In this document: one piece after another, positions 1 through 29,070 of the stretch
Position numbering within the stretch: position 1 is the first letter of the stretch
Layout: each line of letters begins with the position of its first letter
From: Hydrogenophilales bacterium 16-61-112
GTDB taxonomy: Bacteria; Pseudomonadota; Gammaproteobacteria; Burkholderiales; Thiobacillaceae
Length of the DNA: 35,260 nt
Direction of reading: 5' to 3'
Assembly: GCA_002257045.1 (NCBI GenBank)
Contig: NCHD01000019.1
Coordinates: 1-35,260, forward strand
Notes under the pieces: generated by a model
What the model was told of the DNA's origin: nothing
The model's input: only the letters and a program-made list of their open reading frames with translations
Databases searched by the model: none
Program-made: the position numbers and the translations under genes

Positions 1-1
1 C

Positions 2-961
2 CTCATCGCCAGCATCGGTTTTGCCCTGTTGACCCAACCCACGGCGGCCTTGGCCGAAGTCAAGATCGGCGTGTCCGACTGGCCGGGCTGGGTGGCCTGG
101 TATGTCGCCGAGCAAAAAGGCTATTTCAAGAAGCATGGCGCCGACGTCAAGCTGGTCTGGTTCGCCAACTACACCGACTCGATCAGCGCGCTCTCCGCCG
201 GCCAGATCGACGGCAACTCGCAGACCTGGAGCGACACCATGGCGCCGCTGGCCAAGGGTATCGCGCTGAAGACCATCCTGGTCAACGACAACTCGGCCGG
301 CAACGACGCGCTGATGGTCGGCCCCAAGATCAAGTCATTCAAGGATCTGAAGGGCAAGAAGATCGCGCTGGAGGAATACAGCGTGTCGCATTTTCTGCTG
401 ACCCTGGGCCTCATCAAGAACGGCATGACGCTGAAGGACGTCAAGGTGGTCAACCTGTCCGCCGGTGATGCCGCAGCCGCCTTCATGGCCGGCCGCGTCG
501 ACGCCGCCGTGGTGTGGAACCCGTGGGTCAACACCATCCAGACCAGCGGCAAGGGCAAGCCGCTGTTCACCTCGGCCAACGTGCCGGGCCTGGTGCCCGA
601 CCTGCTGGTGGTGCAGGAGAAATCGCTCAAGGCCAAGCGTAAGGACTTCGTCGGCATGGTCAAGGCCTGGTACGACGTTGAGGCTTTCCTGCGCAGCAAC
701 CCGGATGAAGCGGCGAAGATCATGTCCAAGGTGGTCGGCCTCGATGCCAAGACCTACAAGGTCTTCCTGCCCGGCACGAAGTTCTTCGACCAGAATGCCA
801 ACCTGCAGGCTTTTGGCCCTGCCAGCGACAAAACCTCGCTGCTGGGCGTGGCGCCGACTATTTCCAAATTCCTGCTCGACAACAAGCTGATGGAAGGCAA
901 GGTCGATTTCGCCAAGGGCCTGGATGCTTCGCTGGTCAAGGAAGTGGCTGGCGTCAAGTAA
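2..961 (+). CDS. ABC transporter substrate-binding protein, NitT/TauT family (5' end outside the window)
   Basis: Periplasmic binding protein of the nitrate/sulfonate/taurine (SsuA/TauA, NMT1-like) class. The frame is open to the left edge, and the first residues seen form the hydrophobic core of a signal peptide ending in AALA before EVKIGVSDWPG, so only the N-terminal tip is missing. The mature domain has the usual two-lobe features: an opening beta strand, YVAEQKGYFKKHGADV, the FANYTDSISALSAGQID segment, and DLKGKKIALEEYS at the start of the second lobe. About 305 mature residues is normal for the family. The permease and ATPase follow at once. Because the same operon carries a guanidine riboswitch and the guanidine carboxylation pathway, guanidine or a guanidino compound is the likely ligand. 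That is inference from context; the family also binds sulfonates, nitrate, pyrimidines and others. Confidence 0.9.
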   Translation, partial: LIASIGFALLTQPTAALAEVKIGVSDWPGWVAWYVAEQKGYFKKHGADVKLVWFANYTDSISALSAGQIDGNSQTWSDTMAPLAKGIALKTILVNDNSAGNDALMVGPKIKSFKDLKGKKIALEEYSVSHFLLTLGLIKNGMTLKDVKVVNLSAGDAAAAFMAGRVDAAVVWNPWVNTIQTSGKGKPLFTSANVPGLVPDLLVVQEKSLKAKRKDFVGMVKAWYDVEAFLRSNPDEAAKIMSKVVGLDAKTYKVFLPGTKFFDQNANLQAFGPASDKTSLLGVAPTISKFLLDNKLMEGKVDFAKGLDASLVKEVAGVK

Positions 962-980
962 GCATCAGGGAGATATGACG

Positions 981-1817
981 ATGCTATCCAGACCCGGCAC
1001 CCGACCGCGCGCCAAGTCGTCTGGCAAACCGGGCATGTGGGCGATCCGCGGCCCGCTGTCGCGCAACCAGTACTGGCTGTTCGCCGCACTCGGGTTGCTG
1101 GCGCCGCTCGCCCTGTGGTGGCTGGTATCCAGTTCGGCCTCGGTGGACAAGGTATTCATGCCGGGTCCGCTGGATGTCTATCACCGTTTGATCACGTGGT
1201 ACGTGGACGACAACCTGATGTCCGATATCGGGATCAGCGTCTACCGGGTCACCGCCGGTTTTGCCCTGTCGGCTGTTATCGCGCTGCCGCTGGGGCTGCT
1301 GATCGGCACCTTCCGTCCGGTGCAGGCGGTGCTGGAGCCGCTCACCGACTTCATCCGCTACATGCCGGCGGTGGCCTTCATTCCTCTGGTGATGCTGTGG
1401 GTGGGAATCGAGGAATCTTCGAAGATCGCCATCATCTTCATCGGCACCTTCTTCCAGATGGTGCTGATGATGGCCGAGGACGTGCGCCGCGTGCCGCTGG
1501 CGCAGATCGAAGCGGCGCAGACCATGGGCGCGACGCGCGGCGAGTCGGTCAGGCTGGTGATCTTCCAGTCGGCCAAGCCGGCGCTGCTCGACACCCTGCG
1601 CGTCACCATGGGCTGGGCCTGGACCTATCTGGTGGTGGCCGAACTGGTTGCCGCCAGCTCGGGCATCGGCTACTCGATCCTGAAGGCGCAGCGCTTCTTG
1701 CAGACCGACAAGATTTTCGTCGGCATCCTGCTGATCGGCTTGATCGGCCTGGTGATGGATCAGCTGTTCCGCCTCGCCCACCGCAAGGCCTTCCCCTGGC
1801 TCCACCTGAGGTCGTGA
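981..1817 (+). CDS. ABC transporter permease, NitT/TauT (SsuC/TauC-like) family
   Basis: Inner-membrane permease of the importer, about 278 residues with roughly six hydrophobic segments (the first at LFAALGLLAPLALWWLV, then the FALSAVIALPLGLLIG, VAFIPLVMLWVG and IAIIFIGTFFQMVLMM regions). The cytoplasmic EAA loop that docks the ATPase is clear: IEAAQTMGATRGESVRLV. Two ATGs six bases apart could start it (975 and 981). AGGGAG at 967-972 is only 2 nt from the first but 8 nt from the second, so 981 is preferred. It begins 19 nt after the binding-protein gene, and the ATPase gene follows with a 2-nt gap, so the three form one transporter. The substrate is inferred to be a guanidine-type compound from the operon. 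Confidence 0.9.
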   Translation: MLSRPGTRPRAKSSGKPGMWAIRGPLSRNQYWLFAALGLLAPLALWWLVSSSASVDKVFMPGPLDVYHRLITWYVDDNLMSDIGISVYRVTAGFALSAVIALPLGLLIGTFRPVQAVLEPLTDFIRYMPAVAFIPLVMLWVGIEESSKIAIIFIGTFFQMVLMMAEDVRRVPLAQIEAAQTMGATRGESVRLVIFQSAKPALLDTLRVTMGWAWTYLVVAELVAASSGIGYSILKAQRFLQTDKIFVGILLIGLIGLVMDQLFRLAHRKAFPWLHLRS

Positions 1818-1819
1818 CC

Positions 1820-2653
1820 ATGCCGAAAATTTCCATCCAGCAGGTCGGCAAGGTGTTCGGCGAAGGTGGCCACCGCGTCGAGGCGTTGAAGGACATCAGC
1901 CTCGACATCGCCGACAACGAATTCGTCACCTTCGTCGGCGCCTCCGGCTGCGGCAAATCGACCCTGCTGCGCATCATCGGTGGCCTTGAATACCACACGT
2001 CCGGCGAGGTGCTGGCCAACGGGCAGCCGGTCGCCGGCCCCGGCGCCGACCGCGCCATGGTGTTCCAGCACTACAGCCTCTACCCCTGGCTTCGGGTGAT
2101 GGAGAACATCAAATTCAGCCGCCGTCTCAAGCACGGCCGCGAAAATCTCAGCTCGGCCGACGTCGAGGCCGCTTCCGGCCGCGCCGACGCGCTGTTGAGC
2201 CTGATGGGCCTCAACGCCGCTGTCGACGCCTATCCCAATCAGCTGTCCGGCGGCATGCAGCAGCGCGTCGCCATCGCCCGCGCGCTGATGGGGCGGCCCG
2301 AGATCCTGCTGATGGATGAACCCTTCGGTGCGCTCGATGCGCAGACGCGCGAGGTCATGCACGACCTTATTCTGCACGTGCACCGGCTGGAGAAGCCGAC
2401 GCTCGCCTTCGTCACCCACGACGTCGAGGAGGCGATTTATCTGGCCGACCGCGTGGTGCTGATGGCGCCGCGCCCCGGCCGCATCGACACTATCTACCCG
2501 GTGCCGCTGCCGGCCGAGCGCGAGCAGGACATGAAGCACACGCCGGAATTTCTGCGCCTGAAGAAAGAGATCCTCGCGCGCATCCGCGAGACCTCGGGCA
2601 TGAAGACCGATCAGGGCATGCTCGATCAGCTCAACATGCAGGAGGCGGTATGA
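1820..2653 (+). CDS. ABC transporter ATP-binding protein, NitT/TauT (SsuB/TauB-like) family
   Basis: Cytoplasmic ATPase that powers the importer, 277 residues. All nucleotide-binding motifs are intact and in order: Walker A GASGCGKST, Q-loop VFQHYSLYPW, signature LSGGMQQR, Walker B ILLMDEPFGALD and the switch histidine in VTHDVEEA. The C-terminal tail of about 60 residues (from DTIYPVPLPAEREQD) is typical of SsuB/TauB-type subunits. The frame is open far upstream, but ATG 1820 sits 2 nt after the permease stop and yields MPKISIQQVGKVF, a normal family start. Its stop overlaps the start of the next gene (ATGA at 2650-2653), indicating translational coupling to the creatininase-like gene. Confidence 0.92.
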   Translation: MPKISIQQVGKVFGEGGHRVEALKDISLDIADNEFVTFVGASGCGKSTLLRIIGGLEYHTSGEVLANGQPVAGPGADRAMVFQHYSLYPWLRVMENIKFSRRLKHGRENLSSADVEAASGRADALLSLMGLNAAVDAYPNQLSGGMQQRVAIARALMGRPEILLMDEPFGALDAQTREVMHDLILHVHRLEKPTLAFVTHDVEEAIYLADRVVLMAPRPGRIDTIYPVPLPAEREQDMKHTPEFLRLKKEILARIRETSGMKTDQGMLDQLNMQEAV

Positions 2654-3426
2654 ACTCAGGCAACCCCGTTCTCTGGCAGAACCTCACCTGGGAAGACGTC
2701 GCCGCGCTGCGCGACCGCGGCATCACTATGGCGATCCTGCCGGTGGGCGCGACCGAGCAGCATGGCCCGCATCTGCCGCTCGGGGTCGACACGCTGTCGG
2801 CCGAAGCGGTGGCACATGGCGCTTCGACGCTCACCGGCATTCCGGTGCTGCCCAGCCTCGCCTACGGCTGCTCGCTCGGGCATTCGCCGAAGTGGCCCGG
2901 GACGATTTCGTTGCGCCCCGAAACGCTCGCCAAGCTGGTGCTGGAAATCGCCGAATGGTTGCACACGGCCGGCTTCGACCGCCTGCTACTCCTGAACGGA
3001 CACGTCACCAACTGGGCGCCGCTGCGCTGCGGGCTGGAGAACATCCGCCACACCTACCCGACCATGCGCGTCGCGCTACGCTCGATCTGGGACATTTCGG
3101 ACGAAGCGAACCGCCGCTATCACGAGGACGCCGCCAACTTCCACGCCAACTGCGCCGAGACCTCGCTGATGCTGGCGCTGCATCCCGAGCTGGTGCGCAT
3201 GGACAAGGTCGTCGACGAACCCGACCGCTCGGCCGGCTGCTTCTTTTCGTATCGCGTGAACGACGAGAGTGTGAACGGCACGGTCGGCAGGCCGAGCCAG
3301 GCCGAAGCCGCCGCCGGCAAGAATCTGCTCGATCTCTGCGTGAGAGAACTCGCGCAGCAACTCACTGTGGCGCTGACCGAGGCTACACCCCTCGAAAGCG
3401 CCGGCATCAGTCCACCCCCGTTTTAA
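2650..3426 (+). CDS. Creatininase-family amidohydrolase
   Basis: Protein of 258 residues in the creatininase / creatinine amidohydrolase superfamily (also MftE-like), binuclear-metal enzymes that hydrolyse small C-N bonds. The metal-binding opening is textbook: VGATEQHGPHLPLGVDT carries the Glu, His and Asp ligands. The second signature, normally NGHGGN, is here NGHVTN, a departure that may alter the active site. The third region HANCAETSLMLALHPELV carries the downstream His and Glu. It overlaps the ATPase gene by 4 nt and precedes a glutamine-synthetase homologue, so it belongs to the guanidine operon. Its substrate is unknown. It could trim a guanidino compound or act on a pathway intermediate, but nothing in the sequence decides this. 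Confidence 0.88.
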   Translation: MNSGNPVLWQNLTWEDVAALRDRGITMAILPVGATEQHGPHLPLGVDTLSAEAVAHGASTLTGIPVLPSLAYGCSLGHSPKWPGTISLRPETLAKLVLEIAEWLHTAGFDRLLLLNGHVTNWAPLRCGLENIRHTYPTMRVALRSIWDISDEANRRYHEDAANFHANCAETSLMLALHPELVRMDKVVDEPDRSAGCFFSYRVNDESVNGTVGRPSQAEAAAGKNLLDLCVRELAQQLTVALTEATPLESAGISPPPF

Positions 3427-3438
3427 GGAGTTGTCAGC

Positions 3439-4815
3439 ATGACCATGCATTCCCAACCCGAAACCCTGGCGGTCGAAACCCAGGCCGCCAGGGCTGCTCT
3501 CGAAGCCGCCGGGGTCAAATACGCACTCGCCAGCTTTGCCGACCTGCACGGCATGTCCAAAGGCAAGGTGGTACCGGTCAGCCATTTCGAACAGATGGTC
3601 GGCGGCTCCGAGCTCTACACCGGCGCCGCGCTCGACGGCGTGCCGCAGGAGGTCAACGACGAGGAAGTGGCGGCGCATCCCGACCTCGCGTCCGCCGCGA
3701 TCCTGCCGTGGAATCCGGAAGTGGTGTGGTACGCCAGCGACCTCTACCTGAAAGGCCAGCCGTTCGAAGCCTGCTCGCGCGGGATTCTGAAAAAACAACT
3801 CGCGGCCGCCGCCGAGCTCGGCCTGCGCTTCAACCTCGGCATCGAGACCGAGTTCTTCATCCTCAAGCAAAACGCCGACGGCAGCATCGCCCCGACCAGC
3901 GAGGCCGACACGCTCGCCAAGCCCTGTTACGACGTGCGCGGCTTCCTTGACAACTACAGCCTGCTCGACGAAATCGTGCAGGCGATGGACGGCCTCGGTT
4001 GGGACGTCTATTCCTTCGACCACGAGGACGCCAACGGCCAGTTCGAGACCGACTTCCAGTTCGCCGACGGGCTGACCATGGCCGACCGTTTCACCTTCTT
4101 CCGTCTGATGCTGGGCGAGATGGCGAAGAAGCGCGGCTATTTCGCCACCTTCATGGCCAAGCCCTTCGCCGACCGCACCGGTAGCGGCGCCCACTTCAAC
4201 ATGTCGATGGCGAGCCTGGAAACCGGCGAAAACCTGTTTGATTCCGAGGCAGACGCCAACGGCCTCAAACTGTCGAAGCTCGGCTACCAGTTCGTCGCCG
4301 GCGTGCTGAAGCACGCGCACGCGATCTCCGCCGTTATCGCCCCCACGGTCAACAGCTACAAGCGCCTGGTGCGGCGCGGCAACATGTCCGGCTTCACCTG
4401 GGCGCCGATCCACGTCTCCTTCGGCAGCAACAACCGCACCAACATGCTGCGCGTGCCGCTCGCCGGCGGGCGTGTCGAATGCCGCGCCGCCGACATGTCG
4501 TGCAACCCGTATCTGGCCGCCGCGCTGATGCTGGCCGCCGGCCTCGAAGGCATCCGCGAAGGGCTCGACCCCGGCAAGCCGCACGGCGAGAACATGTACC
4601 AGCACACCGAGGAAGCGCTCCAGGCGATGGGCGTTTCGCACCTGCCGCGCTCGCTGGAGGAAGCCATCGACGCTTTCGAGGCCGACCCGCTGACCAAGCA
4701 GGTGTTCGGCCCGCTGATGGCCGACGCCTTCGTCAAGTTCAAGCGCGACGAGTGGGAGGCGTATCACACCCACGTGTCGCAGTGGGAACTCGACCGTTAC
4801 CTGAAATTCTTCTGA
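3439..4815 (+). CDS. glnT: Glutamine synthetase family protein, GlnT-type
   Basis: Protein of 458 residues with the full glutamine synthetase catalytic fold. Visible motifs include GIETEFFIL (metal-binding Glu), HEDANGQFETDF, GSGAHFNMSM (ATP/metal loop), NSYKRL, and the C-terminal arginine-rich segment NRTNMLRVPLAGGRVECRAA followed by NPYLAAALMLAAGLEGI. It resembles the rhizobial GlnT class often labelled type III glutamate-ammonia ligase, rather than housekeeping GlnA. The start is supported by AAGGAG at 3425-3430, 8 nt upstream. In this operon it could capture ammonia released from guanidine as glutamine, or ligate glutamate to another amine. Related GS-like enzymes act on amines other than ammonia, so the substrate is open. 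Confidence 0.85.
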   Translation: MTMHSQPETLAVETQAARAALEAAGVKYALASFADLHGMSKGKVVPVSHFEQMVGGSELYTGAALDGVPQEVNDEEVAAHPDLASAAILPWNPEVVWYASDLYLKGQPFEACSRGILKKQLAAAAELGLRFNLGIETEFFILKQNADGSIAPTSEADTLAKPCYDVRGFLDNYSLLDEIVQAMDGLGWDVYSFDHEDANGQFETDFQFADGLTMADRFTFFRLMLGEMAKKRGYFATFMAKPFADRTGSGAHFNMSMASLETGENLFDSEADANGLKLSKLGYQFVAGVLKHAHAISAVIAPTVNSYKRLVRRGNMSGFTWAPIHVSFGSNNRTNMLRVPLAGGRVECRAADMSCNPYLAAALMLAAGLEGIREGLDPGKPHGENMYQHTEEALQAMGVSHLPRSLEEAIDAFEADPLTKQVFGPLMADAFVKFKRDEWEAYHTHVSQWELDRYLKFF

Positions 4816-4826
4816 TTCGAATCGTC

Positions 4827-5564
4827 ATGGCACAAAACCTCAACCCCATCCCGCCCGCGCTTTTTTTGTGGGAAGAAGCCCTGCCCGGCGGCTGCCACTG
4901 GTCGGGCATCCTGCGCCGCGGCAACGCGCTCAGGCTCACCGATCTTTCCGGCCGCGCCAACGTCTCGGCACTGTTCTACAACGCCGAGGAAAAGCTCGAG
5001 CGCTACAACATGCCCGACACCCTGAAGGCGCAGCACACCGCGCACCTGACCAAGGGTCACGCGCTCTACTCCGACATGGGCCACGTGCTGTGCTCGGTCA
5101 TTGCAGATACCTGCGGCTGGCACGACACGCTGTGCGGCGTCTCCAATGCCGAGATGGTGAAGGAGCGGTACGGCGAAGCGAGCTACCAGACCCACCGCAA
5201 CGCCATGCACCGCAATGGCCGCGACGGCCTGCTGATCGAGCTGGGCAAATGGGGACTCGGCAAGCGCGACGTGGTGCCGAACGTGAACTTTTTCAGCAAG
5301 GTGGTGGCTGACGAAGCCGGGCGGCTGCAGTTCGACGAAGCGAACTCGCATCCTGGCGCCACCGTTGATCTCCGCTTCGAGATGAACGTGCTGGTGGTGT
5401 TGTCCGCCGCGCCGCACCCGCTTGACCCGCGCCCCGACTATGCGCCGGGCGACATCATGCTCACCGCGTGGAAGGCCGGTGCGCCGGGCGCGGACGACGC
5501 CTGCCGCAATGCCTGCGCAGAAAACCAGCGCGGCTTTTATCAGACCGAAATCCTGTACCGCTGA
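4827..5564 (+). CDS. cgdA: Carboxyguanidine deiminase subunit A (urea carboxylase-associated protein 1, DUF1989)
   Basis: DUF1989 protein of 245 residues, long called urea carboxylase-associated protein. In characterised guanidine pathways this protein and its partner form carboxyguanidine deiminase, which converts carboxyguanidine to allophanate and ammonia. The conserved core is present: [37 protein letters not shown], the metal-binding-like stretch [12 protein letters not shown], and NVNFFSKV near the middle of the fold. The frame is open well upstream, but ATG 4827 lies 11 nt after the glnT stop and gives [17 protein letters not shown], the expected N-terminus. The cgdB gene follows after 10 nt. 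Assignment as the A subunit rests on order and overall likeness; the guanidine role rests on the riboswitch downstream. Confidence 0.85.
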
Positions 5565-5574
5565 GGTGAAAACC

Positions 5575-6234
5575 ATGAGCACATTCAACCTCGTCGAAAG
5601 CCCCTTCGATCCCAAGACCGCCGTGGTCGACGCCGTCGTCGATGCCGGCGATCCCTGGATCCACGAAATCAAAAAAGACCAGGTCTTCCGCATCCTCGAC
5701 CTCGAAGGCAACCAGGCGGTCGACACGTTGTTCTTCAACGCGCGCGACATCGAGGAGCGCTATAGCGCCGCCGACACCGTGCGTGCGCAGGGCGCGCTCT
5801 ACCTCACCACCGGCACGCAGTTGATGTCGACCGAAGGCAGGGTCATGCTGACAATCACCGCCGACACCTGCGGCCGCCACGACACGCTGGGCGGCGCTTG
5901 TTCGTGCGAGAGCAACACCGTCCGATATGCGCTGAACAAGCGGCCAATGCACGCCTGCCGCGACAGCTTTCTGCACGCGCTGGCGCACCATGACGGCGGC
6001 CTCACCAAGCGCGACATCACCAGCAACATCAATTTCTTCATGAACGTGCCGGTGACACCCGACGGCGGCCTCACCTTCGCCGACGGCGTGTCGGCACCGG
6101 GTAAATACGTGGAGATGCGCGCCGAGATGGACGTGCTGTGCCTCATCTCCAACTGCCCGCAGCTCAACAACCCGTGCAACGCCTACAACCCGACGCCGGT
6201 GCGGGTGCTGATCTGGGATGCGGCCGCCCAATAA
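5575..6234 (+). CDS. cgdB: Carboxyguanidine deiminase subunit B (urea carboxylase-associated protein 2, DUF1989)
   Basis: DUF1989 protein of 219 residues, paralogous to the preceding gene and the expected second subunit of carboxyguanidine deiminase. It shares the core pattern [39 protein letters not shown] and [10 protein letters not shown]. The cysteine cluster and the Asp-Thr-Cys...His-Asp motif match the metal site seen in the A subunit. The start at 5575 gives [20 protein letters not shown], typical for the family; the longer open frame upstream overlaps cgdA and is discarded. The stop at 6234 is followed by the 87-nt leader that carries the guanidine-II riboswitch, so cgdB lies upstream of the switch and the carboxylase downstream. 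Confidence 0.85.
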
Positions 6235-6264
6235 CAAGCCGAGCCAATAACCCATAAAAATCCC

Positions 6265-6315
6265 CGGCGGGACGGCCTGCCGCGGAGACTGCACGCGGGA
6301 CGACCCGCAAGGAAG
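6265..6315 (+). promoter_or_regulatory. Guanidine-II (mini-ykkC) riboswitch
   Basis: Two perfect hairpins with the diagnostic ACGR tetraloops lie just before the carboxylase gene. The first is cggcggg-ACGG-cctgccg at 6265-6282, with seven pairs including one G-U. The second is gcggg-ACGA-cccgc at 6295-6308, with five pairs. A 12-nt linker separates them. The ribosome binding site AAGGAAG (6309-6315) abuts the second stem and lies 6 nt before ATG 6322. In the known class the two loops kiss through their CG bases, bind one guanidine each and turn translation on. Loop sequence, spacing and the downstream gene (urea/guanidine carboxylase) all agree. I could not identify the alternative pairing that would hide the ribosome binding site without ligand. 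Confidence 0.9.
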
Positions 6316-6321
6316 CACACC

Positions 6322-9300
6322 ATGTTCGACAAGGTTCTCATCGCCAACCGCGGCGCCATCGCCTGCCGCATCATCCGTACCTTGCGCCGCATGGGGGTGA
6401 AATCGGTCGCCGTCTATTCCGAGGCGGACCGCCATTCGCTGCACGTGCGGCTGGCCGACGAGGCGGTGGAGATCGGCCCGGCGCCGGCGGCGCAAAGTTA
6501 CCTGCGCGCCGAGAAGATTCTCGAAGCGGCTAAAGCCACCGGCGCCCAGGCCATCCACCCCGGCTACGGCTTCCTCTCCGAGAACCCCGGCTTCGCCGAA
6601 GACTGTGCCGCTTCCGGCATTGTCTTCATCGGCCCCAGCCCGGACCAGATGCGCGCCTTCGGCTTGAAGCACACCGCGCGCGATCTGGCCGAGCACAACA
6701 AGGTGCCGTTGCTGCCGGGTTCCGGCCTGTTGAGCGACGCCGGCCACGCCCAGGCCGAGGCGGCGCGCATCGGCTACCCGGTGATGCTGAAAAGCACCGC
6801 CGGCGGCGGCGGCATCGGCATGCGCCTGCTCTGGAGCGCCGACGAGCTGGTGGAAGCCTTTCAGTCGGTTGAGCGGCTGGCGCGCGCCAACTTCAAGGAG
6901 GCCGGCATCTTCCTCGAAAAATACGTCGAGCACGCGCGCCACATCGAGGTGCAGATATTCGGCGACGGCAAGGGTCAGGTCGTCGCGCTGGGCGAGCGTG
7001 ACTGCTCGGTGCAGCGGCGTAATCAAAAAGTGATCGAAGAAACCCCTGTGCCGGGTTTCACCGAGGTCCAGCGATCTAGCCTGCTGGCGACGGCGGTGCG
7101 GTTGGGTAAAGCGGTCGGCTACCGTTCTGCCGGCACCGTCGAGTTCGTGTACGACACCTTGAGCGGCGAGTTCTACTTTCTCGAAGTGAACACCCGCCTG
7201 CAGGTCGAGCACGGCGTCACCGAGGAAGTTACCGGCGTCGATCTGGTCGAGTGGATGGTGCGCGAGGCGGCCGGCGAACTGGACTTGTCCGGCTTCCAGG
7301 CCACGCCCAAGGGCGCATCGATGCAGGTGCGCCTCTACGCCGAGGATCCGGGCAAGGATTTCCAGCCCGCCGCCGGCGTCTTGACCGAGGTGGTGTTCTC
7401 GCCGGATGCGCGCATCGAAACCTGGGTCGAGCGCGGCAGCGAGGTGCCGCCATTCTACGACCCGATGGTGGCGAAGATTATCGTCAAGGGCCGCGACCGC
7501 GCTGAGGCGCTGGAGAAGATGCAGCAGGTGCTTGCGCAAACACGTGTCGCCGGCATCGAAACCAACCTCGGCTACCTCAGCCAGATTGTGCGCGATGCGG
7601 TATTCATGGAAGGGCGCCAGACCACGCGCTATCTCAATGCCTTCCACTACCGCCCCGCGACCATCGACGTCATCGAGCCCGGCGTGCAGAGCAGCATTCA
7701 GGACTGGCCGGGCCGCACCGGCTACTGGGACGTCGGCGTGCCGCCGTCGGGGCCGATGGATGCGCTGGCGCTGCGTCTGGCCAACAAGCTGGCGGGCAAT
7801 GCCGAAGGTGCGGCCGCGCTGGAACTCACCGTCGCCGGCCCCACGCTGCGCTTCAACTGCGACGCGCGGATCGCACTGGCCGGCGCCGACATGGGTGCCG
7901 AGCTGGACGGGCAGCCGCTCGCTAACTGGGCCGCGCACGCGGTGAAGGCCGGTTCGATCCTGAAACTTGGCGCGATCAAGGACACTGGCTGCCGCGCCTA
8001 CCTCGCGGTGCGCGGCGGCTTCGACGTGCCGGACTATCTCGGCAGCAAATCGACCTTCACGCTCGGGCAGTTTGGCGGCCATGCCGGGCGCACGCTGCGG
8101 GTCGGTGACGTGCTGCACATCCCTTGGGCTCAAAACTCGGCAATCGAGAATATGCTGCCGGCCGCGCTGGCCCCCACCTACGCCCACGCCTGGGAAATCG
8201 GCGTGCTGTATGGCCCGCACGGTGCGCCGGACTTTTTCACCGGCGCCGACATCGAGATGTTCTTCGCCACCGACTGGGAGGTGCATTACAACTCCAGCCG
8301 CACTGGCGTCCGGTTGATCGGCCCACGTCCCGAATGGGCGCGCAAGGACGGCGGCGAGGCCGGTCTGCATCCGTCCAACATCCACGACAACGCCTACGCC
8401 ATCGGCGCGGTCGATTTCACCGGCGACATGCCGGTGATCCTTGGGCCGGACGGCCCCAGCCTCGGCGGCTTCGTCTGCCCGGCCACCATCGTGCAGGCTG
8501 AGTTGTGGAAGATGGGGCAGCTGCGTCCCGGCGACACGGTGCGTTTCAAGCGCCTCTCGCAGACGCAGGCCGAGCAGATGGAAGCGGCGCAGGACGCAGC
8601 CATCGCCGGCCTCGCCGCGCCGGCTGCTCCCGTGCTTGTCGTCGATGGCGGCCCGCTCGCCGAACCGGTGCTGCACCGAACCCCGGAAACCGATAACCCG
8701 GTGCCGGTCGTTTATCGCCGCGCCGGCGACAAATACCTGCTGGTCGAATACGGCCCGCTGGTGCTCGACCTCAACCTGCGCTTCCGCGTGCATGCGCTGA
8801 TGACGCATCTTCAGGCGATGGCCGTGTCCGGCATCCTCGACCTCACCCCTGGCATCCGCTCGCTGCAGGTGCATTACGACTCACGCGTGCTGCCGCTGAG
8901 CAAATTGATGGACCTGCTTCTGGCCGCGGAACAGGCGCTGCCCGCCATCGAGGACATGCAGGTGCCCACGCGCATCGTCCATATCCCGCTGTCATGGGAC
9001 GACGCCGCCACCCAACTCGCCATCGAAAAGTACATGCAGTCGGTGCGCAAGGATGCGCCCTGGTGCCCGAGCAACATCGAGTTCATCCGCCGCATCAACG
9101 GCCTCGACTCGATCGAAGACGTGAAACGCATCGTCTTCGACGCGAGCTACCTGGTGATGGGCCTGGGCGACGTCTACCTCGGTGCGCCGGTGGCCACGCC
9201 AGTCGACCCGCGCCATCGCATGGTCACCACCAAGTACAACCCCGCCCGCACCTGGACCCCGGAAAACGCCGTCGGCATCGGCGGCGCGTACATGTGCGTG

Positions 9301-9924
9301 TACGGCATGGAAGGCCCCGGCGGCTACCAGTTCGTCGGCCGCACGCTGCAGATGTGGAACCGCTGGCGAGCAACCCGCGACTTCACCGACGGCAAGCCGT
9401 GGCTGCTGCGCTTCTTCGACCAGGTGCGCTTCTTCCCGGTGAGCGAAGAAGAACTCCTTACAATCCGCGAGGATTTCCCGCTCGGCCGCTACCAGTTGAA
9501 GATCGAGGAAACCACCTTCAGCCTGCGTGAATACAACAGTTTCCTTGCCGACAACGCCGCGTCCATCGGCGCCTTCAAGTCGCAGCAGCAGGCCGCGTTC
9601 GACGCCGAGCGCGAGCGCTGGCGTGCAAGCGGTCAGGCCGATTACGCAAGCGATCTGACGGTGGCCGAAGCCGCGCCCGACAGCGAACTCGACCTGCCCG
9701 AAAACGGCCGCGCCATCGCCAGCCACGTCGCCGGCAACGTGTGGAAGGTGGAAGTGACAGAGGGCGCAGAAGTGAAACAGGGCGATCCGCTGGTCATGGT
9801 TGAATCGATGAAGATGGAGTTCACCGTGATGGCGCCGTGCGACGGACGCATCCACAAGATGTTCTGCCGCGAAGGCGGGCAGGTGAGCGCCGGGCAGGAT
9901 CTGCTGGTGCTGGTGAGCGAGTGA
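6322..9924 (+). CDS. Guanidine carboxylase (urea carboxylase family, biotin-dependent)
   Basis: Biotin enzyme of 1200 residues that carboxylates guanidine (or urea) using ATP and bicarbonate. Domains in order: biotin carboxylase, residues about 1-445 (KVLIANRGAIACRI, glycine-rich loop AGGGGIGMR, EVNTRLQVEHGVTEEVTG); a KipA/AHS2-like carboxyltransferase half from about 450 (VIEPGVQSSIQDWPGRTGYW, GVPPSGPMDALALRLANKL); a KipI/AHS1-like half from about 795 (LLVEYGPLVLDLNLRFRVHA); and a C-terminal biotin carrier domain with VESMKMEF, Lys1164 being the biotin site. The fully fused architecture is that of urea carboxylase. The guanidine-II riboswitch in its leader and the adjoining cgdAB genes favour guanidine as substrate. 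Family members differ at a substrate-pocket residue (reported as Asp versus Asn), which I did not map here. atzF follows after 8 nt. Confidence 0.9.
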   Translation: MFDKVLIANRGAIACRIIRTLRRMGVKSVAVYSEADRHSLHVRLADEAVEIGPAPAAQSYLRAEKILEAAKATGAQAIHPGYGFLSENPGFAEDCAASGIVFIGPSPDQMRAFGLKHTARDLAEHNKVPLLPGSGLLSDAGHAQAEAARIGYPVMLKSTAGGGGIGMRLLWSADELVEAFQSVERLARANFKEAGIFLEKYVEHARHIEVQIFGDGKGQVVALGERDCSVQRRNQKVIEETPVPGFTEVQRSSLLATAVRLGKAVGYRSAGTVEFVYDTLSGEFYFLEVNTRLQVEHGVTEEVTGVDLVEWMVREAAGELDLSGFQATPKGASMQVRLYAEDPGKDFQPAAGVLTEVVFSPDARIETWVERGSEVPPFYDPMVAKIIVKGRDRAEALEKMQQVLAQTRVAGIETNLGYLSQIVRDAVFMEGRQTTRYLNAFHYRPATIDVIEPGVQSSIQDWPGRTGYWDVGVPPSGPMDALALRLANKLAGNAEGAAALELTVAGPTLRFNCDARIALAGADMGAELDGQPLANWAAHAVKAGSILKLGAIKDTGCRAYLAVRGGFDVPDYLGSKSTFTLGQFGGHAGRTLRVGDVLHIPWAQNSAIENMLPAALAPTYAHAWEIGVLYGPHGAPDFFTGADIEMFFATDWEVHYNSSRTGVRLIGPRPEWARKDGGEAGLHPSNIHDNAYAIGAVDFTGDMPVILGPDGPSLGGFVCPATIVQAELWKMGQLRPGDTVRFKRLSQTQAEQMEAAQDAAIAGLAAPAAPVLVVDGGPLAEPVLHRTPETDNPVPVVYRRAGDKYLLVEYGPLVLDLNLRFRVHALMTHLQAMAVSGILDLTPGIRSLQVHYDSRVLPLSKLMDLLLAAEQALPAIEDMQVPTRIVHIPLSWDDAATQLAIEKYMQSVRKDAPWCPSNIEFIRRINGLDSIEDVKRIVFDASYLVMGLGDVYLGAPVATPVDPRHRMVTTKYNPARTWTPENAVGIGGAYMCVYGMEGPGGYQFVGRTLQMWNRWRATRDFTDGKPWLLRFFDQVRFFPVSEEELLTIREDFPLGRYQLKIEETTFSLREYNSFLADNAASIGAFKSQQQAAFDAERERWRASGQADYASDLTVAEAAPDSELDLPENGRAIASHVAGNVWKVEVTEGAEVKQGDPLVMVESMKMEFTVMAPCDGRIHKMFCREGGQVSAGQDLLVLVSE

Positions 9925-9932
9925 GGCCCAGC

Positions 9933-11726
9933 ATGAACATCCCGCTCGACATCGCCAGCCTGCGGCGCCTGTATCGGTCCGGCGAGCTCATCCCGCTCGC
10001 CTTGGTGGACGACCTGCTCGCCCGTCTGGCCGGCGAGGACACGCACCATGTCTGGATCAGCCGCCTCGACGCCGACGCACTGCGCGCCTATGCAAGCAAA
10101 CTCGAAGGCCGGGACATCGCGAGCTTGCCGCTGTACGGCATTCCCTTCGCCATCAAGGACAACATTGACCTCGCCGGCCTGCCCACCACGGCCGGCTGCC
10201 CCGAGTTTGCCTACACGCCGAAGCGTCATGCAACGGTGGTGCAGCGGCTGATCGACGCCGGCGCGATTCCCCTTGGCAAGACCAACCTCGACCAGTTCGC
10301 CACCGGGCTGAACGGCACCCGCTCACCCTACGGCGCCTGCCGCAACGCCTTCAACCCCGACTTCATTTCCGGCGGTTCCAGCTCCGGATCGGCCGTCGCG
10401 GTGGCGCTCGGCCTCGCGAGCTTTTCGCTCGGCACCGACACCGCCGGCTCCGGCCGCGTGCCCGCCGCGTTCAACAACCTGGTCGGCCACAAGCCCAGCT
10501 GTGGCGCGCTGTCGACCCGCGGCGTGGTGCCCGCCTGCCGCTCGCTTGACGCGGTGTCGATCTTTGCGCTGACCGCAGAAGATGCCGAGCGCGTGGTGGC
10601 GGTGGCCGCAGGCTTCGACGCCGACGATGAATACGCGCGGCCGCTGGCGCCGCACGGCTTCGACTTCGGTCGCGCGCCGGCTTTCCGTTTCGGCGTGCCG
10701 CTGCAGACGGATCTTGAGTTTTTTGGCAACGCCGAGGCCGAACGCCTGTTCGGCGAAGCGGTGGCGCGCATGCAGGCGCTCGGCGGAACGCCGGTGGGAG
10801 TCGACCTCGCGCCCTTCCTCGACACTGCGTGCCTGCTCTACGGCGGCCCCTGGGTGGCCGAGCGCTATCTCGCCATCCGCGAGTTCTTCGACGCGCAGCC
10901 CGACACCGTCTTTCCGCCAGTGCGCGACATCATCGCCGGCGGCCGCGCCGTCAGCGCCGCCGATACCTTCGCCCATCTCTACAAGCTGCGTGCGTTCAAG
11001 CGCACCTGCGATGCCGTGTGGAACGACATCGACGTCATGCTCACCCCCACCGCCGGCACGATCTACCGCGTGGATGAGATGCAGGCCGACCCCATCCGTC
11101 TCAACTCGAATCTCGGCTATTACACCAACTTCATGAACCTGCTGGATCTCGCCGCTACCGCCGTGCCGGCCGGGTTCCAGACCGACGGCCTGCCGTTCGG
11201 CGTCACCCTGATCGCGCCGCCGCATCAGGACGGCCCGCTGCTGCATCTGGCGTCCAGAATGCAGCAGGCGCTCGGCGGCCAAACGGGCGCCACCGCGCAC
11301 CCGTTGCCCGTAGCCGAACCCATGAACCTGCTGGCGAGCGGCCAGGTCCGCGTCGCCGTCGTTGGCGCCCACCTCAGCGGCCTGCCGCTCAACCCCCAGC
11401 TCACCGAACGCACGGCGCGTTTGGTCGCCACAACGCAGACCGCGCCGAAATACCGTTTCTACGCCCTGCCCGACGGCAAGCGCCCCGGACTGATCAAGGT
11501 GGAAAGCAGAGGCGCCGCCATCGCCTGCGAAGTCTGGGAAATGCCCGCCGCCGCCTTCGGCTCCTTCGTCGCCGGGATCCCCGCGCCGCTCGGCATCGGC
11601 ACGCTGGAACTGGCCGATGGCGCCTGCGTGAACGGCTTTATCTGCGAAGGCATCGGCGTGGCCGGTGCGCAGGACATTACGGAATTCGGGGGGTGGCGGG
11701 CGTGGTTGGCGGCGCGGGATGTATGA
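9933..11726 (+). CDS. atzF: Allophanate hydrolase
   Basis: Amidase-signature enzyme of 597 residues that hydrolyses allophanate to ammonia and CO2, the last step of the pathway. The N-terminal amidase domain has the Ser-cisSer-Lys triad: Lys in FAIKDNIDLAG, the cis-Ser in SGGSSSGSAVA and the nucleophile in GTDTAGSGRVPAA. The C-terminal 140 or so residues (from VAVVGAHLSGLPLNPQL, through YRFYALPDGKRPGLIKV, to AQDITEFGGWRAW) form the gamma-glutamylcyclotransferase-like domain typical of AtzF/DUR1. ATG 9933 is 8 nt after the carboxylase stop and gives MNIPLDIASLRRLYRSGEL, a normal start. It is the last gene of the operon; a hairpin about 50 nt downstream may end the transcript. Confidence 0.93.
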   Translation: MNIPLDIASLRRLYRSGELIPLALVDDLLARLAGEDTHHVWISRLDADALRAYASKLEGRDIASLPLYGIPFAIKDNIDLAGLPTTAGCPEFAYTPKRHATVVQRLIDAGAIPLGKTNLDQFATGLNGTRSPYGACRNAFNPDFISGGSSSGSAVAVALGLASFSLGTDTAGSGRVPAAFNNLVGHKPSCGALSTRGVVPACRSLDAVSIFALTAEDAERVVAVAAGFDADDEYARPLAPHGFDFGRAPAFRFGVPLQTDLEFFGNAEAERLFGEAVARMQALGGTPVGVDLAPFLDTACLLYGGPWVAERYLAIREFFDAQPDTVFPPVRDIIAGGRAVSAADTFAHLYKLRAFKRTCDAVWNDIDVMLTPTAGTIYRVDEMQADPIRLNSNLGYYTNFMNLLDLAATAVPAGFQTDGLPFGVTLIAPPHQDGPLLHLASRMQQALGGQTGATAHPLPVAEPMNLLASGQVRVAVVGAHLSGLPLNPQLTERTARLVATTQTAPKYRFYALPDGKRPGLIKVESRGAAIACEVWEMPAAAFGSFVAGIPAPLGIGTLELADGACVNGFICEGIGVAGAQDITEFGGWRAWLAARDV

Positions 11727-11778
11727 CTGCGAGCGACCCGTGCGATCGATCAGGTTGAGCAGGCTTGACGACAGCTTC

Positions 11779-11810
11779 TCGGCCTTATGTGGAGCGCTAC
11801 ATAAGGCCGA
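11779..11810. repeat. 12-bp perfect inverted repeat downstream of atzF
   Basis: The arms tcggccttatgt (11779-11790) and acataaggccga (11799-11810) pair perfectly over 12 bp around the 8-nt loop ggagcgct, which itself contains the palindrome agcgct. It lies between the convergent atzF (ends 11726) and yceH (ends 11892). It could act as a terminator in both directions, but there is no T-run on either side. The shape also resembles an isolated end or site of a mobile element. The rest of the 165-nt gap shows no gene. Confidence 0.6.
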
Positions 11811-11891
11811 GGTACGGACATACGTGGCGATCTTTTCGACTTGATCGCTCTTGGCCGAACGCGATCTTCAGCCTTTCTCCAATCCGGAATC

Positions 11892-12569
11892 TCAACCGGA
11901 CACGCCGAGTTCTGCGCACAGTTTTCCCACCACGCCTTTCAACGCTTCGACCTCCGACTCCAGCCGCGCCACGTTGACCTTGAGTGCGGCGAGTTCGCTG
12001 ACGCTGACGTCGGCGACCCATTCGCTTGACGGGCTGGCGGGGGCGGATGGCTCGATGACTGGCGAGCCGCTCAGCAGGTGCGCCCAGCGGTTCTCGCGCG
12101 CGCCGGGCTGGCGCGACAGTTCGACCACCATGGCGCCGTCCGGGCGCTCGGCCAGTTCCTGCAGAAAGCCTTCCACCGCCGAGATGTCGGCGAAGCGGTG
12201 CAGACGCTCGCAGTTGATGCGCAACTCGCCTGTGGTCTGCGGGCCGCGAAGCATCAGCACGGTGAGCAGGGCGATGGACTGGGCCGGCAATTGCAGCACA
12301 CGGCCCATGTTGTGGGCGTAGCGGGTGACGCGGCCGCCGCTGGATTCCATCACCAGCGCCGGGCCCTTGAGACTGTCGATGGCGGCCTGTACTTCGGCTT
12401 CGCTGGCTTCGATGAGGGGGTGGCGGCTGGTTTTCTGGTTGCAGCCGGCGACCAAGGCGTTGAGCGATAGCGGATAGGTGTCGGGCACGGTGTGCTGCTT
12501 TTCGCAGAGCACGCCGAGGACGCGGGTTTCGAGCAGGGAGAGGACGGGCAGATGGGGAGCGGTCATCAT
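11892..12569 (-). CDS. yceH: YceH/DUF480 family protein
   Basis: Conserved cytoplasmic protein of the YceH (DUF480) family, built of two winged-helix domains; its molecular role is not established. Family landmarks are clear: LSLLETRVLGVLCEKQHTVPDTYPLS, AGCNQKTSRHP, the second half LLTVLMLRGPQTTGELRINC, and PGARENRWAHLLSG. A coiled-coil-like C-terminus (VNVARLESEVEALKGVVGKL) matches the E. coli protein. The start is uncertain: ATGs on the minus strand at 12656, 12599, 12569 and 12566 are all in frame, and none has a clear ribosome binding site. 12569 is chosen because family homology begins within about ten residues of it. It is convergent with atzF and divergent from the cheW-like gene. Confidence 0.88.
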   Translation of the reverse strand: MMTAPHLPVLSLLETRVLGVLCEKQHTVPDTYPLSLNALVAGCNQKTSRHPLIEASEAEVQAAIDSLKGPALVMESSGGRVTRYAHNMGRVLQLPAQSIALLTVLMLRGPQTTGELRINCERLHRFADISAVEGFLQELAERPDGAMVVELSRQPGARENRWAHLLSGSPVIEPSAPASPSSEWVADVSVSELAALKVNVARLESEVEALKGVVGKLCAELGVSG

Positions 12570-25990: not shown

Positions 25991-27124
25991 TTAACTAACA
26001 AACAGGCTAAGGTAACGATCGAATGCAAAGACCCTTCCGCGTTGCTGCCCCGTAATTTCGGTCACTATCCCCAGGTTTTCCATGTCACGGATAAGTGCAT
26101 TAGCCGTTGGGGTGCTGACTGACAGCGCCACCTCGATATCCGTCGCTGACACCATAGGCTTGCGGTAGAGCAGATTGAGCATCAGTCTCGCGTTAGGTGC
26201 GCGTTTCCCCAGTGATAGGACGGCGTGTTCAACTTCAGTGCGCAAAGTCAGAATCTTGCGGAACACGTCACGGCCCTTTGTCGCAGTTTCTGCCACACCA
26301 CTGAGAAAGAATCGAACCCAATGAATCAGATCATTCGAAACCCGCACACGCATCAGTGCATCGTAATAGCTTGCGCGGTTGCGCTCAAAATAGTCCGAAA
26401 GATAGAGTGAAGGTTTGGCCAGCAAGCCGTGATTGACTAGATAGAGCGGAATCAGCAACCGCCCGATACGTCCATTGCCATCCAGAAACGGGTGGATGGT
26501 TTCAAACTGGTAATGGCTGATGGCTACCCGAATCAGATGTGGAACCGCAATGTTTTCGTTATGCCAGAACTTCTCCATTTCTCCCATCAGATCGGGTACT
26601 TCATCGGGGTGCGGCGGAATAAAAACCGCGTCTGCCAAACTGGCACCGCCAATCCAGTTCTGGCTTGCGCGAAATTCCCCGGGCTGTTTGTGCTCACCGC
26701 GCACTCCCCGCATCAGGATTTCATGCGTGTGCTTGAGCAAGCGGTTGGATAGCGGCAACGTGGCCAATTCCCGGATCGCCACATTCACTGCGTCGATGTA
26801 ATTGCGCACTTCGCGCCAGTCGTTGCGCTTCTCCGGCAGAATCTGTTCTTCGGGCAGGAGTGCCTCGTCAATGCCTGTTTGTGTCCCCTCGATGCGGCTG
26901 GAGGTTTGTGCTTCTTTGACCACGTGCATCTCAATGAAGAGATCGATGTCAGGCACGATCAGCGAAAACGCATTCAGTTCACCCAGCGCTCGATTGGCAT
27001 CTTCCAGCAGCGTGTTGACCACAGGGTCTTCCCAGGTCCAGACAGTATTCACGGGCGATGGCGAAAAACTTTTGTATTGATACTGCTGGTGCCAAATGCC
27101 GGCCTTGAATTGTTCGAATTTCAT
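25991..27124 (-). CDS. Fic-domain protein with N-terminal inhibitory motif and winged-helix C-terminus
   Basis: Protein of 377 residues that probably AMP-ylates a target protein. The catalytic motif HPFLDGNGRIGR at residues 211-222 matches HxFx(D/E)GNGRxxR. An N-terminal inhibitory motif of the (S/T)xxxE(G/N) type is seen in TSSRIEGT, putting it in the self-inhibited class II group. A Fic_N-like helical region precedes the core. The C-terminal 70 residues (APNARLMLNLLYRKPMVSAT, DIEVALSVSTPTANALIRDM) form a winged helix that may bind DNA. ATGA overlap with the MmeI-like gene and an AAAGG about 8 nt upstream support the start. Being the last of four overlapping genes, it may protect or guard the restriction module; that is inference. 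Confidence 0.92.
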   Translation of the reverse strand: MKFEQFKAGIWHQQYQYKSFSPSPVNTVWTWEDPVVNTLLEDANRALGELNAFSLIVPDIDLFIEMHVVKEAQTSSRIEGTQTGIDEALLPEEQILPEKRNDWREVRNYIDAVNVAIRELATLPLSNRLLKHTHEILMRGVRGEHKQPGEFRASQNWIGGASLADAVFIPPHPDEVPDLMGEMEKFWHNENIAVPHLIRVAISHYQFETIHPFLDGNGRIGRLLIPLYLVNHGLLAKPSLYLSDYFERNRASYYDALMRVRVSNDLIHWVRFFLSGVAETATKGRDVFRKILTLRTEVEHAVLSLGKRAPNARLMLNLLYRKPMVSATDIEVALSVSTPTANALIRDMENLGIVTEITGQQRGRVFAFDRYLSLFVS

Positions 27125-29070
27125 TTCATCGCCTTTCTGGCGTGCTTCCCGACCGTTACTTGGCTGGCCGAGCTGCGCGCCAGGTTCAGCGCCAGCAAAC
27201 GCTTGAGGATGTCCTCGTCCGGCATTTCCGGCGTGTAGTCGGTCCAGCCGTAGGCGGCGGCCACCGCCGCGTCGAGTTCGCGGTGGGCGTGGTCGAGCCA
27301 GGCCGGGCGGGCGTTGTAGAGATTGGTGAGGGTGCGTTTTTTCAGCTCGGCTTCATGGCTGGGCTTGGCGACCGGGCGCAGCGGGAAGCCGGCCTGCTCT
27401 TCTTCTTTCGTCCGCACCCAGTCCACCCACTCCGGCGGGTTGAGCCAGGTTTCGCGCAGGGTGTTGAGTTGTTTTGCGGCGGCGGCGATGGCTTCGGCCG
27501 TCACCCCGGCGGGGAAGGGGAAGGTCTCGAAGCAGGATTTTGCGAAGTATTCATCGCCCAGTTCGCCGCGTTTCATGCTGCCGCCGAGGAAAGGCGGATT
27601 GCCGAAGATGGCGTCGGCGGCGGGCCAGAGAGGTTCGCAGTAAATCTCGCTGCTTGAATCGATTTTCCGATAGGCCAGTACCGCATCGCGGTTCTCGATA
27701 TGGTCGAGCGGCTGCAGGATCGGGTTGCGTCGCAGCGCGTAGCCGTGCGCCAGCATCCACTGGATTTCGCCGATCCACACGGTGACGCGGGCGAGTTCGG
27801 CGGCATACGGGTTGAGTTCGATGCCGAGGACGTTGGCGGGGCTGGTTTCGATCACCAGTTCGCAGTGCAGGCCGAGAGATTCGGCTTCGAGGTTGGCGCG
27901 GTGCTCCAGGTCTTTGAGGGTTTTCAGCGCCAGGTAGAGGAAATTGCCGCTGCCGCAGGCGGGGTCGAGCACGCGGTAGGCCTTGAGCCGCTGGATGAAA
28001 CCCGCCAACGCGGCCTGGGCGTCGCGGTGCGCGGTTTGCGAGCCTTTGCCGCCCTGGACATAGCTTTCCATCAACCCGGCGATGCGTGCCTTGACCGGCT
28101 GCCATTCGGCCAGCAGCGGCGCTTCGATCACCGGGCGGATCAGTTTGAGAATGGTGGCGGGGTCGGGGTAGTGCGCGCCGAGCTGGCTGCGCATGTCGGG
28201 GTTGAGGCCGCGCTCGAACAGGGTGCCCAGTATCGCCGGCTCGATCTCGCCCCAGCCCATGCGCGCGCAATCGAGCAGGTGCACCACATCTTCGGTGGTG
28301 AGCGGCGGCACCTCGATCAGCTCGAACAGGCCGCCGTTGAAATAGGGGATGGTTTCCAGCGAAAAGTCGCCGCCTTTCTGCATGGCGGCAAACAAGGCAG
28401 TTAGCCGGGACTGGGCTTTGGTACCGTCCGGGTTGGATTTATCGAGCACCCTTTCAAATAGCTTCTCGGGCAACAATTTCGCGTCTTCGGCAAACATGCA
28501 GAACACGCACTGGATCAGAAAGTGCGCGGTTTGCAGCGGTGTGTTGCCTTGCGCATTGAGGCGCTCGGCCAGCTTGCCCATCTTGCGCGCGGCTTCTTCG
28601 GTGACGGCGTAGGTGGTCGTGCGGGGTTTGTATCGATCAGGCGCATTAAATAGCCAGCGCAGCTTTTGCAGGTTTTCCGGCTGGCCAATGTCTTCCAGCA
28701 GAATCTCATGCACTTCGCTCGGCGTGCCGGTGAAGTGGGTGTGGATTTCAATCCGTTTGCGGTCGCTCACCACCAGCAGCGGTGGGTTGTCGAGCGCCAG
28801 CGCGTACACCATCAACTGCTTGAGCGCCGCGCCGAGATCCTTGTCGGGCGCCTTGTATTCACAGGCGAAGCAGCCGCGTTTCCACACATCCGCCCAGCCC
28901 TGGCTGGCGCTGCTTTTCTTGATCAGCCCGCGTTCGTACTGGTATTCGCCTTCGACGCGCGGCGGCTCCACTTCCAGCAGCGCGCACAGGTCTTCGAAAT
29001 GCGCCTGCGCGCCCGCGCGTTCGGTCAGCGGGTTGGCGCGCCATTTGGCGATGAAGGCTTGCGGGGTCAT
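27121..29070 (-). CDS. MmeI-like (type IIL) restriction-methylation protein lacking its target recognition domain
   Basis: Protein of 649 residues, whereas full-length relatives usually reach 900 or more. The N-terminal part has a PD-(D/E)xK-type nuclease site (ADVWKRGCFACEYK). A helical linker follows, and the methyltransferase has motif I LDPACGSGNFLYLALK (about 368) and motif IV FGNPPFLGGSMK (about 488). Normally some 280 residues of methylase and target recognition domain follow; here ELGDEYF passes after a few residues to CFETFPFPAG (about 514), a motif that lies near the far end of the recognition domain. The tail RTLTNLYNARPAWLDHAH is normal. The frame is kept, so a shortened protein may be made, but specific DNA recognition should be lost. 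It overlaps hepT and fic by 4 nt each. Confidence 0.85.
   Translation of the reverse strand: MTPQAFIAKWRANPLTERAGAQAHFEDLCALLEVEPPRVEGEYQYERGLIKKSSASQGWADVWKRGCFACEYKAPDKDLGAALKQLMVYALALDNPPLLVVSDRKRIEIHTHFTGTPSEVHEILLEDIGQPENLQKLRWLFNAPDRYKPRTTTYAVTEEAARKMGKLAERLNAQGNTPLQTAHFLIQCVFCMFAEDAKLLPEKLFERVLDKSNPDGTKAQSRLTALFAAMQKGGDFSLETIPYFNGGLFELIEVPPLTTEDVVHLLDCARMGWGEIEPAILGTLFERGLNPDMRSQLGAHYPDPATILKLIRPVIEAPLLAEWQPVKARIAGLMESYVQGGKGSQTAHRDAQAALAGFIQRLKAYRVLDPACGSGNFLYLALKTLKDLEHRANLEAESLGLHCELVIETSPANVLGIELNPYAAELARVTVWIGEIQWMLAHGYALRRNPILQPLDHIENRDAVLAYRKIDSSSEIYCEPLWPAADAIFGNPPFLGGSMKRGELGDEYFAKSCFETFPFPAGVTAEAIAAAAKQLNTLRETWLNPPEWVDWVRTKEEEQAGFPLRPVAKPSHEAELKKRTLTNLYNARPAWLDHAHRELDAAVAAAYGWTDYTPEMPDEDILKRLLALNLARSSASQVTVGKHARKAMK

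Follow-up and report, generated by a model that had tools for sequence, protein, structure and literature searches.

The window, by which we mean the whole stretch of DNA that was analysed, is one complete contig of 35,260 bases (G000:C133) from a genome of 206 contigs. It starts within an operon, and its genes run on the plus strand from base 1. The first of them encodes an ABC transporter substrate-binding protein (1-961; TIGR01728, 204.4 bits), the 5' end of which lies on contig C13, behind a guanidine-I aptamer. It is followed on the same strand by an ABC permease (975-1817; PF00528), an ABC ATPase (1820-2653; PF00005), a creatininase-family amidohydrolase (2650-3426; PF02633, 229.2 bits, under the TIGR04448 cut-off), a type III glutamate-ammonia ligase family protein (3439-4815; TIGR03105, 586 bits), the DUF1989 carboxyguanidine deiminase subunits encoded by cgdA (UAAP1; 4827-5564; TIGR03425, 370.7 bits, and PF09347) and cgdB (UAAP2; 5575-6234; TIGR03424, 347.8 bits, and PF09347), a guanidine carboxylase annotated as urea carboxylase (6322-9924; TIGR02712, 1924.8 bits, with an alignment to 3va7 and 5i8i) and, 8 nt behind it, the allophanate hydrolase gene atzF (9933-11726; TIGR02713, 805.4 bits). 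A guanidine-II element lies in the gap that separates the stop codon of cgdB (6234) from the ATG of the carboxylase gene (6322), and the mid-operon position given in the initial annotation, 3' of cgdAB and 5' of the carboxylase gene, agrees with this gene map. A crude scan for sigma-70-like promoters over window positions 1-12000 found no site in the whole interval, versus 1.3 expected, and thus no internal promoter of this type before the carboxylase gene. Homologues of the creatininase-family and glutamate-ammonia ligase genes (45-56% identity) are retained in relatives whose transporter set differs; a literature search found no paper linking creatininase, guanidine, riboswitch and glutamine synthetase. 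Elsewhere in the window, the minus strand at 25991-29763 carries a Fic protein (SoFic, 394.6 bits), an MmeI-like type IIG enzyme of 649 aa, the best stretch of which covers positions 2-587 in a model of 1136 positions, and a HepT-like/nucleotidyltransferase pair. Judging from its gene content, this cluster is possibly a defence or toxin-antitoxin island.

Both cgdA and cgdB exceed the curated UAAP1 and UAAP2 cut-offs, and Asp698 of the carboxylase (VDFTGD) aligns with Asn1330 (INFTGD) of the K. lactis urea carboxylase 5i8i. Asn1330 is presumably the specificity position described in the work cited next; a literature search on N1330 and urea carboxylase found nothing. At that specificity position, Asp marks guanidine carboxylases and Asn urea carboxylases (PMC12186494). 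Asp occupies the equivalent position in all 80 carboxylase loci of our comparison sample, which consists of the best 80 of at least 585 confirmed loci from a scan of public genomes and is biased toward near relatives. The earlier proposal that this is a guanidine rather than a urea operon is supported by the UAAP1 and UAAP2 matches, Asp698 and the guanidine-I aptamer at the operon head, while a urea-degradation operon is rejected by Asp698, the DUF1989 pair and the presence of two guanidine aptamers.

The guanidine-II element consists of two hairpins, delimited from the sequence and from the RF01068 match. P1 (6265-6282) reads CGGCGGG-ACGG-CCUGCCG, with its 5' arm at 6265-6271, the ACGG loop at 6272-6275 and the 3' arm at 6276-6282; P2 (6295-6308) reads GCGGG-ACGA-CCCGC, with its 5' arm at 6295-6299, the ACGA loop at 6300-6303 and the 3' arm at 6304-6308. 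Both stems had been described as perfect, which holds for P2 (5 bp, all Watson-Crick) but not for P1, where one of the 7 bp is a G-U. The linker CGGAGACUGCAC (6283-6294, 12 nt) holds a Shine-Dalgarno-like GGAGA, and the Shine-Dalgarno sequence of the carboxylase gene, AAGGAAG (6309-6315), abuts P2; the two loops, the 12-nt spacing and the contact with the carboxylase ribosome binding site can all be read directly from the sequence, as was claimed. Predicted folds point to a candidate extension of P1 (6261-6286), in which UCC 6261-6263 and GGA 6284-6286 would pair beyond a C-C mismatch. The published guanidine-II consensus is a pair of hairpins with ACGR loops (PMC5486947, PMC9094411), and both loops of the window element are ACGR tetraloops on G+C-rich hairpins, each closed by a G-C pair (G6271-C6276 in P1, G6299-C6304 in P2). 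Crystallography shows the ligand with the closing G stacked beneath it and the loop guanine in contact with it; the fourth loop base is in an extrahelical position, stacked against its partner base (PMC5486947).

The full RF01068 model matched 6264-6308 with 29.6 bits (E 4.3e-4, 501 nt searched), and in a search of the whole genome the window element (E 5.8e-4) came at the top of seven matches, with the runner-up at 15 bits. The gathering threshold of the family is 32 bits, and a scan of the window at that threshold gave no match. A covariance search below threshold had been named in the initial annotation as refuting the assignment, and in that formal sense the score (29.6 against 32 bits) speaks against it; the threshold is nevertheless a curators' cut-off and not a structural definition. 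When RF01068 was searched in 60 relatives and the own genome, 24 matches were obtained, of which 17 reached at least 25 bits, and the gene directly downstream of these 17 was a carboxylase in 10 cases, a gdx-type small exporter in six (according to our reading of the frames) and none that could be recognised in one (L014). Among the 10 carboxylase-linked matches, window included, two score above 32 bits and eight below, and because of these eight we suspect that it is the cut-off, and not the element, that is at fault for the missed score. The L014 match (1392-1433; G018, C369) scores 31.1 bits and has no recognisable gene directly downstream. A class-wide draw of 274 genomes at E 1e-4 yielded 17 matches in 16 genomes; 14 could be parsed, with seven located before a carboxylase, five before an exporter and two before another protein.

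Conservation was evaluated in the same 80 carboxylase loci, from which L154 and L171, where the carboxylase N-terminus is absent, were left out of the motif counts, leaving 78. A pair of GACGNC motifs, 18-55 nt apart and at most 140 nt upstream, was present in 59 of these 78 loci (drawn from the best 80 of at least 585) and in the window, so that 60/79 carboxylase upstreams carry it, versus 134/7816 control windows from the same loci. With a stricter test that demanded stems of at least 4 bp, pairs were found in 47 of the 76 loci having at least 120 nt upstream, the background being 7/7800 in mononucleotide shuffles and 56/8000 in random windows, the latter possibly including true elements. 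The genus genomes contain 19 carboxylase loci, two without a start; 13 of the 17 genes with a start have both motifs within the last 110 nt and the other four have only one nearby, because a 141-nt insert separates P1 from P2 in these loci.

For covariation, 60 upstreams were aligned on the GACGNC motifs only, pairing not being a selection criterion; the counts are not independent, the sequences being related and some near-identical. P1 was paired at depths 2-7 in 60, 54, 53, 52, 56 and 49 of the 60 sequences and at depths 8 and 9 in 35 and 36; six pair types were seen at each of depths 4, 5 and 6, and five at depth 7. P2 was paired at depths 2-5 in 59/60, 58/60, 58/60 and 57/59, and at depths 6 and 7 in 26/59 and 8/59. 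Compensatory changes were found in both stems, those of P1 at depths 3-7 across the 60 sequences. Sliding one arm by +1, +2 or -1 lowered pairing to 10-35 at P1 depths 4-7 and to 0-24 at P2 depths 4-5, although the G-rich first three positions still often paired in these registers (up to 60). The P1 loops were ACGA in 37 sequences, ACGG in 17, ACGT in three and ACGC in three, and the P2 loops ACGA in 38, ACGG in 17 and ACGC in five (n=60 for each). The ACGR rule is thus broken in one loop (ACGY) by 11 of the 60 carboxylase-linked elements, with ACGT in L101, L105 and L107 and ACGC in L102, L103, L104, L108, L109, L121, L146 and L152. The identification as guanidine-II is supported by the covariance model, below its curated cut-off, by conservation and by covariation. 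In one relative (L040 of G001, 11732-11790) the linker GGAGACUGCAC is similar to GGAGAUUGCAU, the ribosome binding site 3' of P2, which looks like a tandem duplication of hairpin and binding site.

The 141-nt insert lies in the linker between P1 and P2 in G015 (with an identical copy in L111), G026 and G027; the copies are located at L083:1332-1472, L111:8832-8972 and, both on the minus strand, L087:2558-2698 and L090:3332-3472. In G017 a contig end retains 57 bases from its 3' side. The insert is a near-complete hairpin, self-complementary over nearly its whole length, with predicted energies of -78 to -87 kcal/mol. In the split copies P1 is found directly 3' of cgdB and P2 still abuts the Shine-Dalgarno sequence; a search with RF01068 at E 0.1 gave no match in G015, G026 or G027. 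Loss of P1 in some Thiobacillus relatives was considered and ruled out, as P1 is present behind the insert. On its opposite strand the insert matches Rfam sX9 (44.9-45.4 bits, cut-off 44), and matches to partial relatives of it at E 1e-5 or better were obtained in 18 of 36 genus genomes, the four carriers included, with none in the own genome at E 1e-5. Literature searches, judged by title and the start of the abstract, returned no paper on guanidine-II linker insertions and none on sX9 as such a repeat.

A second guanidine switch upstream of the binding-protein gene, for which the initial annotation had proposed to look, was found on contig C13, where a guanidine-I aptamer at 184-285 on the minus strand (G000:C13) scored 84.1 bits with RF00442 (cut-off 63). 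It is the single match above cut-off in the own genome, the next one reaching 18.3 bits. Read on its minus strand, C13 enters the substrate-binding gene, whose ATG is at C13:125-123, and the contig ends in 99 bases that recur without a difference at the start of the window. The operon thus begins with guanidine-I and contains guanidine-II midway, a link that bridges a contig gap and that relatives support: G001 and G025 carry both aptamers and the nine genes in the same order on one contig, with 6.3 kb between the aptamers, and in G026 and G027 about 6.5 kb separate guanidine-I from the carboxylase gene, both on the same strand of one contig. In other members of the genus (G005, G012, G016, G019 and, up to the contig end, G018) the order cgdAB, guanidine-II, carboxylase, atzF is preceded by transporter genes that are more distantly related (35-50% identity). 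No guanidine-I match was obtained at E 0.01 in G012, G016 or G019; that of G018 is on the opposite strand, about 15 kb off, and G005 has one weak match (36.5 bits), far away, guanidine-II being the only element found in G005 from 1 kb before the transporter through the carboxylase. Across these relatives the mid-operon guanidine-II element is thus constant and the operon head varies.

The initial annotation had suggested that guanidine-II may tune only carboxylase and atzF and that transport and deimination are set elsewhere; the latter fits the guanidine-I aptamer, with the refinement that a switch at the head would cover the whole operon. If the message spans the operon, carboxylase and atzF would therefore be predicted to answer to both switches. 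No intrinsic terminator was found between the guanidine-I aptamer and the first gene, with two matches upstream of the aptamer, and the fold of the guanidine-I leader is unexceptional (z 0.37). In this leader (L034:123-183, minus strand) the segment CUCUCUCC behind the guanidine-I aptamer could, in our own reading, pair with the Shine-Dalgarno sequence AGGAG; such a pairing would suggest translational control.

These observations, namely the two aptamers identified by sequence and covariance, the gene cluster they share and the guanidine signature of the enzyme, are best explained by a guanidine-II riboswitch that raises translation of the guanidine carboxylase in response to guanidine and is the second of two sensors in the operon, a reading to which we assign a probability of about 0.93. 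By analogy with the published homologues, from which the ligand, the kissing loops and the ON direction are taken, guanidine would bind both ACGR loops, which would then pair with each other, and these kissing loops would lock P1 and P2 and leave the adjacent Shine-Dalgarno sequence free. In the presence of guanidine more carboxylase would be translated, and perhaps more AtzF too, while expression of the transporter, creatininase-like, glutamine-synthetase-like and cgdAB genes, and of everything downstream, would be subject to the guanidine-I switch at the head. We infer that the copy in the window is in working state, that the genes are on a single message and that the site is masked in some manner when the ligand is missing. 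The predicted fold of 6240-6350 is not stabler than shuffles (z -0.58). In the free ensemble of 6235-6350 both P1 and P2 form with probabilities of 0.85-0.86, and along the Shine-Dalgarno sequence the unpaired probabilities are 0.99 and 0.99 for the first two A, 0.41 and 0.37 for the G that follow, 0.80 and 0.70 for the next A and 0.56 for the last G, the G residues being spread across several weak partners with none dominant. With the hairpins already formed and the Shine-Dalgarno sequence partly open, a single OFF state is thus not obvious.

In the E. coli guanidine-II model an anti-Shine-Dalgarno sequence lies within the linker (PMC9094411). None was found in the linker of the window, the best duplex of which with the Shine-Dalgarno sequence has -3.1 kcal/mol (z 0.0 versus shuffled linkers), and the mean z for such pairing was 0.13 across 47 elements of the carboxylase type (that of the window counted in), L147 and L149 being among the few that deviate strongly. 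Another seven carboxylase-linked elements from the class scan, filed as 'other' with the reading frame cut by the locus end, gave a mean z of about -0.7, with -1.8 in L182 and L184; since these seven lean to pairing, some lineages may possess an anti-Shine-Dalgarno. The gdx/sugE exporter elements (the E. coli type; L008, L009, L010, L011 and L015 among the relatives) belong to the same aptamer class and differ in being located before an exporter gene, whereas that of the window precedes the carboxylase gene. Their linker/Shine-Dalgarno pairing varies (-9.5 kcal/mol in L183, -7.0 in L011 and -1.9 in L008), and in the exporter-type sample (10 parsed) the mean z was 0.17, on average no better than shuffles, for which reason no contrast between exporter and carboxylase types is claimed. 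This linker test omitted the unparsed L014, L025, L181, L194 and L196 (5/24 genome loci).

A different platform for the proposed switch, which would refine rather than replace the main reading and which we hold to be unlikely on the strength of the fold predictions, is strand exchange in the ligand-free OFF state. The 5' arm of P1 and the CC or UCC preceding it might pair with the 3' arm of P2 and the GG(A) of the Shine-Dalgarno sequence, and in the ON state the GGAGA of the linker might serve, again tentatively, as a decoy for the UCC. For 6235-6350 the strand-exchanged structure (CC 6263-6264 on GG 6311-6312) equals the minimum energy of -32.4 kcal/mol; nevertheless it is a minor state of that ensemble, in which the two hairpins hold 0.85-0.86. 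In shorter contexts, one set of folds gave -26.5 kcal/mol for the hairpins and -27.5 for the exchange, and in another, of constrained folds, the two were level at -27.8 and -27.9 kcal/mol, respectively. The probability of the GGA being unpaired falls from 0.70 with the hairpins to 0.27 in the exchange in the window, and from 0.80 and 0.75 to 0.07 in L100 and L110. While an equal drop was seen in only 1/200 and 3/200 shuffles of the upstream flank for these two relatives, it was seen in 28/300 for the window and in 30/200 for L105, and in the close relatives L101 and L107 the exchange fails to mask the site (0.69 to 0.75 and 0.30 to 0.44). Exchange of the first four pairs is possible in 23 of 58 carboxylase-type elements (two of 60 with unusual start-codon distance were omitted), the site being masked by at least 0.2 in 8 of the 23, and outside the close relatives of the window one of 14 possible cases (L137) favours it. 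Moreover, GCGGG is common to both stems and by itself enough to permit exchange. A broader proposal, that part of Thiobacillus has a platform of its own, with strand exchange and a UCC mask in the absence of guanidine and a linker decoy in its presence, and that in sister species the aptamer works around the 141-nt hairpin repeat, appears doubtful.

That the window element is a degenerate, non-functional guanidine-II relic, redundant under guanidine-I control, would agree with the score below threshold, the G-U in P1 and the presence of the guanidine-I element, and is nonetheless improbable: the loop and closing-pair positions named for the crystal structure (PMC5486947) are intact, and both motifs are retained in relatives with and without a guanidine-I match. 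Chance G+C-rich hairpins, or a conserved mRNA structure that binds no ligand, would suit the high G+C and the unexceptional fold energy and are very improbable in view of the 60/79 versus 134/7816 motif pairs and of a whole-genome E of 5.8e-4 directly 5' of a guanidine carboxylase gene.

The two-switch layout has already been published in other bacteria, and the window, for which the riboswitch reading is retained, is a further example. In Vreelandella boliviensis, guanidine-I is described in the 5' UTR and guanidine-II in the interval from cgdB to gca; both were in-line probed, with KD values of 44 uM and 93 uM, respectively, and of the two only guanidine-II bound methylguanidine (PMC12508155). 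The same two aptamer classes are thus found in the same places, and the ABC transporter, cgdAB, carboxylase and atzF are clustered in both (PMC12508155); the window differs from that description in that genes for a creatininase-family protein and a type III glutamine synthetase separate the transporter from cgdA, and in that mgdH/mgdL are missing between carboxylase and atzF, which lie 8 nt apart. A similar division, with importer and deiminase behind guanidine-I and carboxylase and allophanate hydrolase behind guanidine-II, is reported for Raoultella, Erwinia and Klebsiella (PMC12186494); these are Enterobacteria, and the passage concerned names no creatininase or glutamine-synthetase gene. 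A literature search on guanidine riboswitches in Thiobacillus returned a paper on Nitrospirales and none on this genus.

Besides correcting the annotation of the 'urea carboxylase' to guanidine carboxylase, the analysis has a bearing on how common guanidine-II is before this gene: the RF01068 cut-off misses 8/10 of the carboxylase-linked matches obtained in this analysis as well as the split copies, so current counts may be too low. With this locus the genus Thiobacillus, to which we infer that the window belongs, joins the bacteria that have a guanidine-controlled operon with aptamers of two classes.
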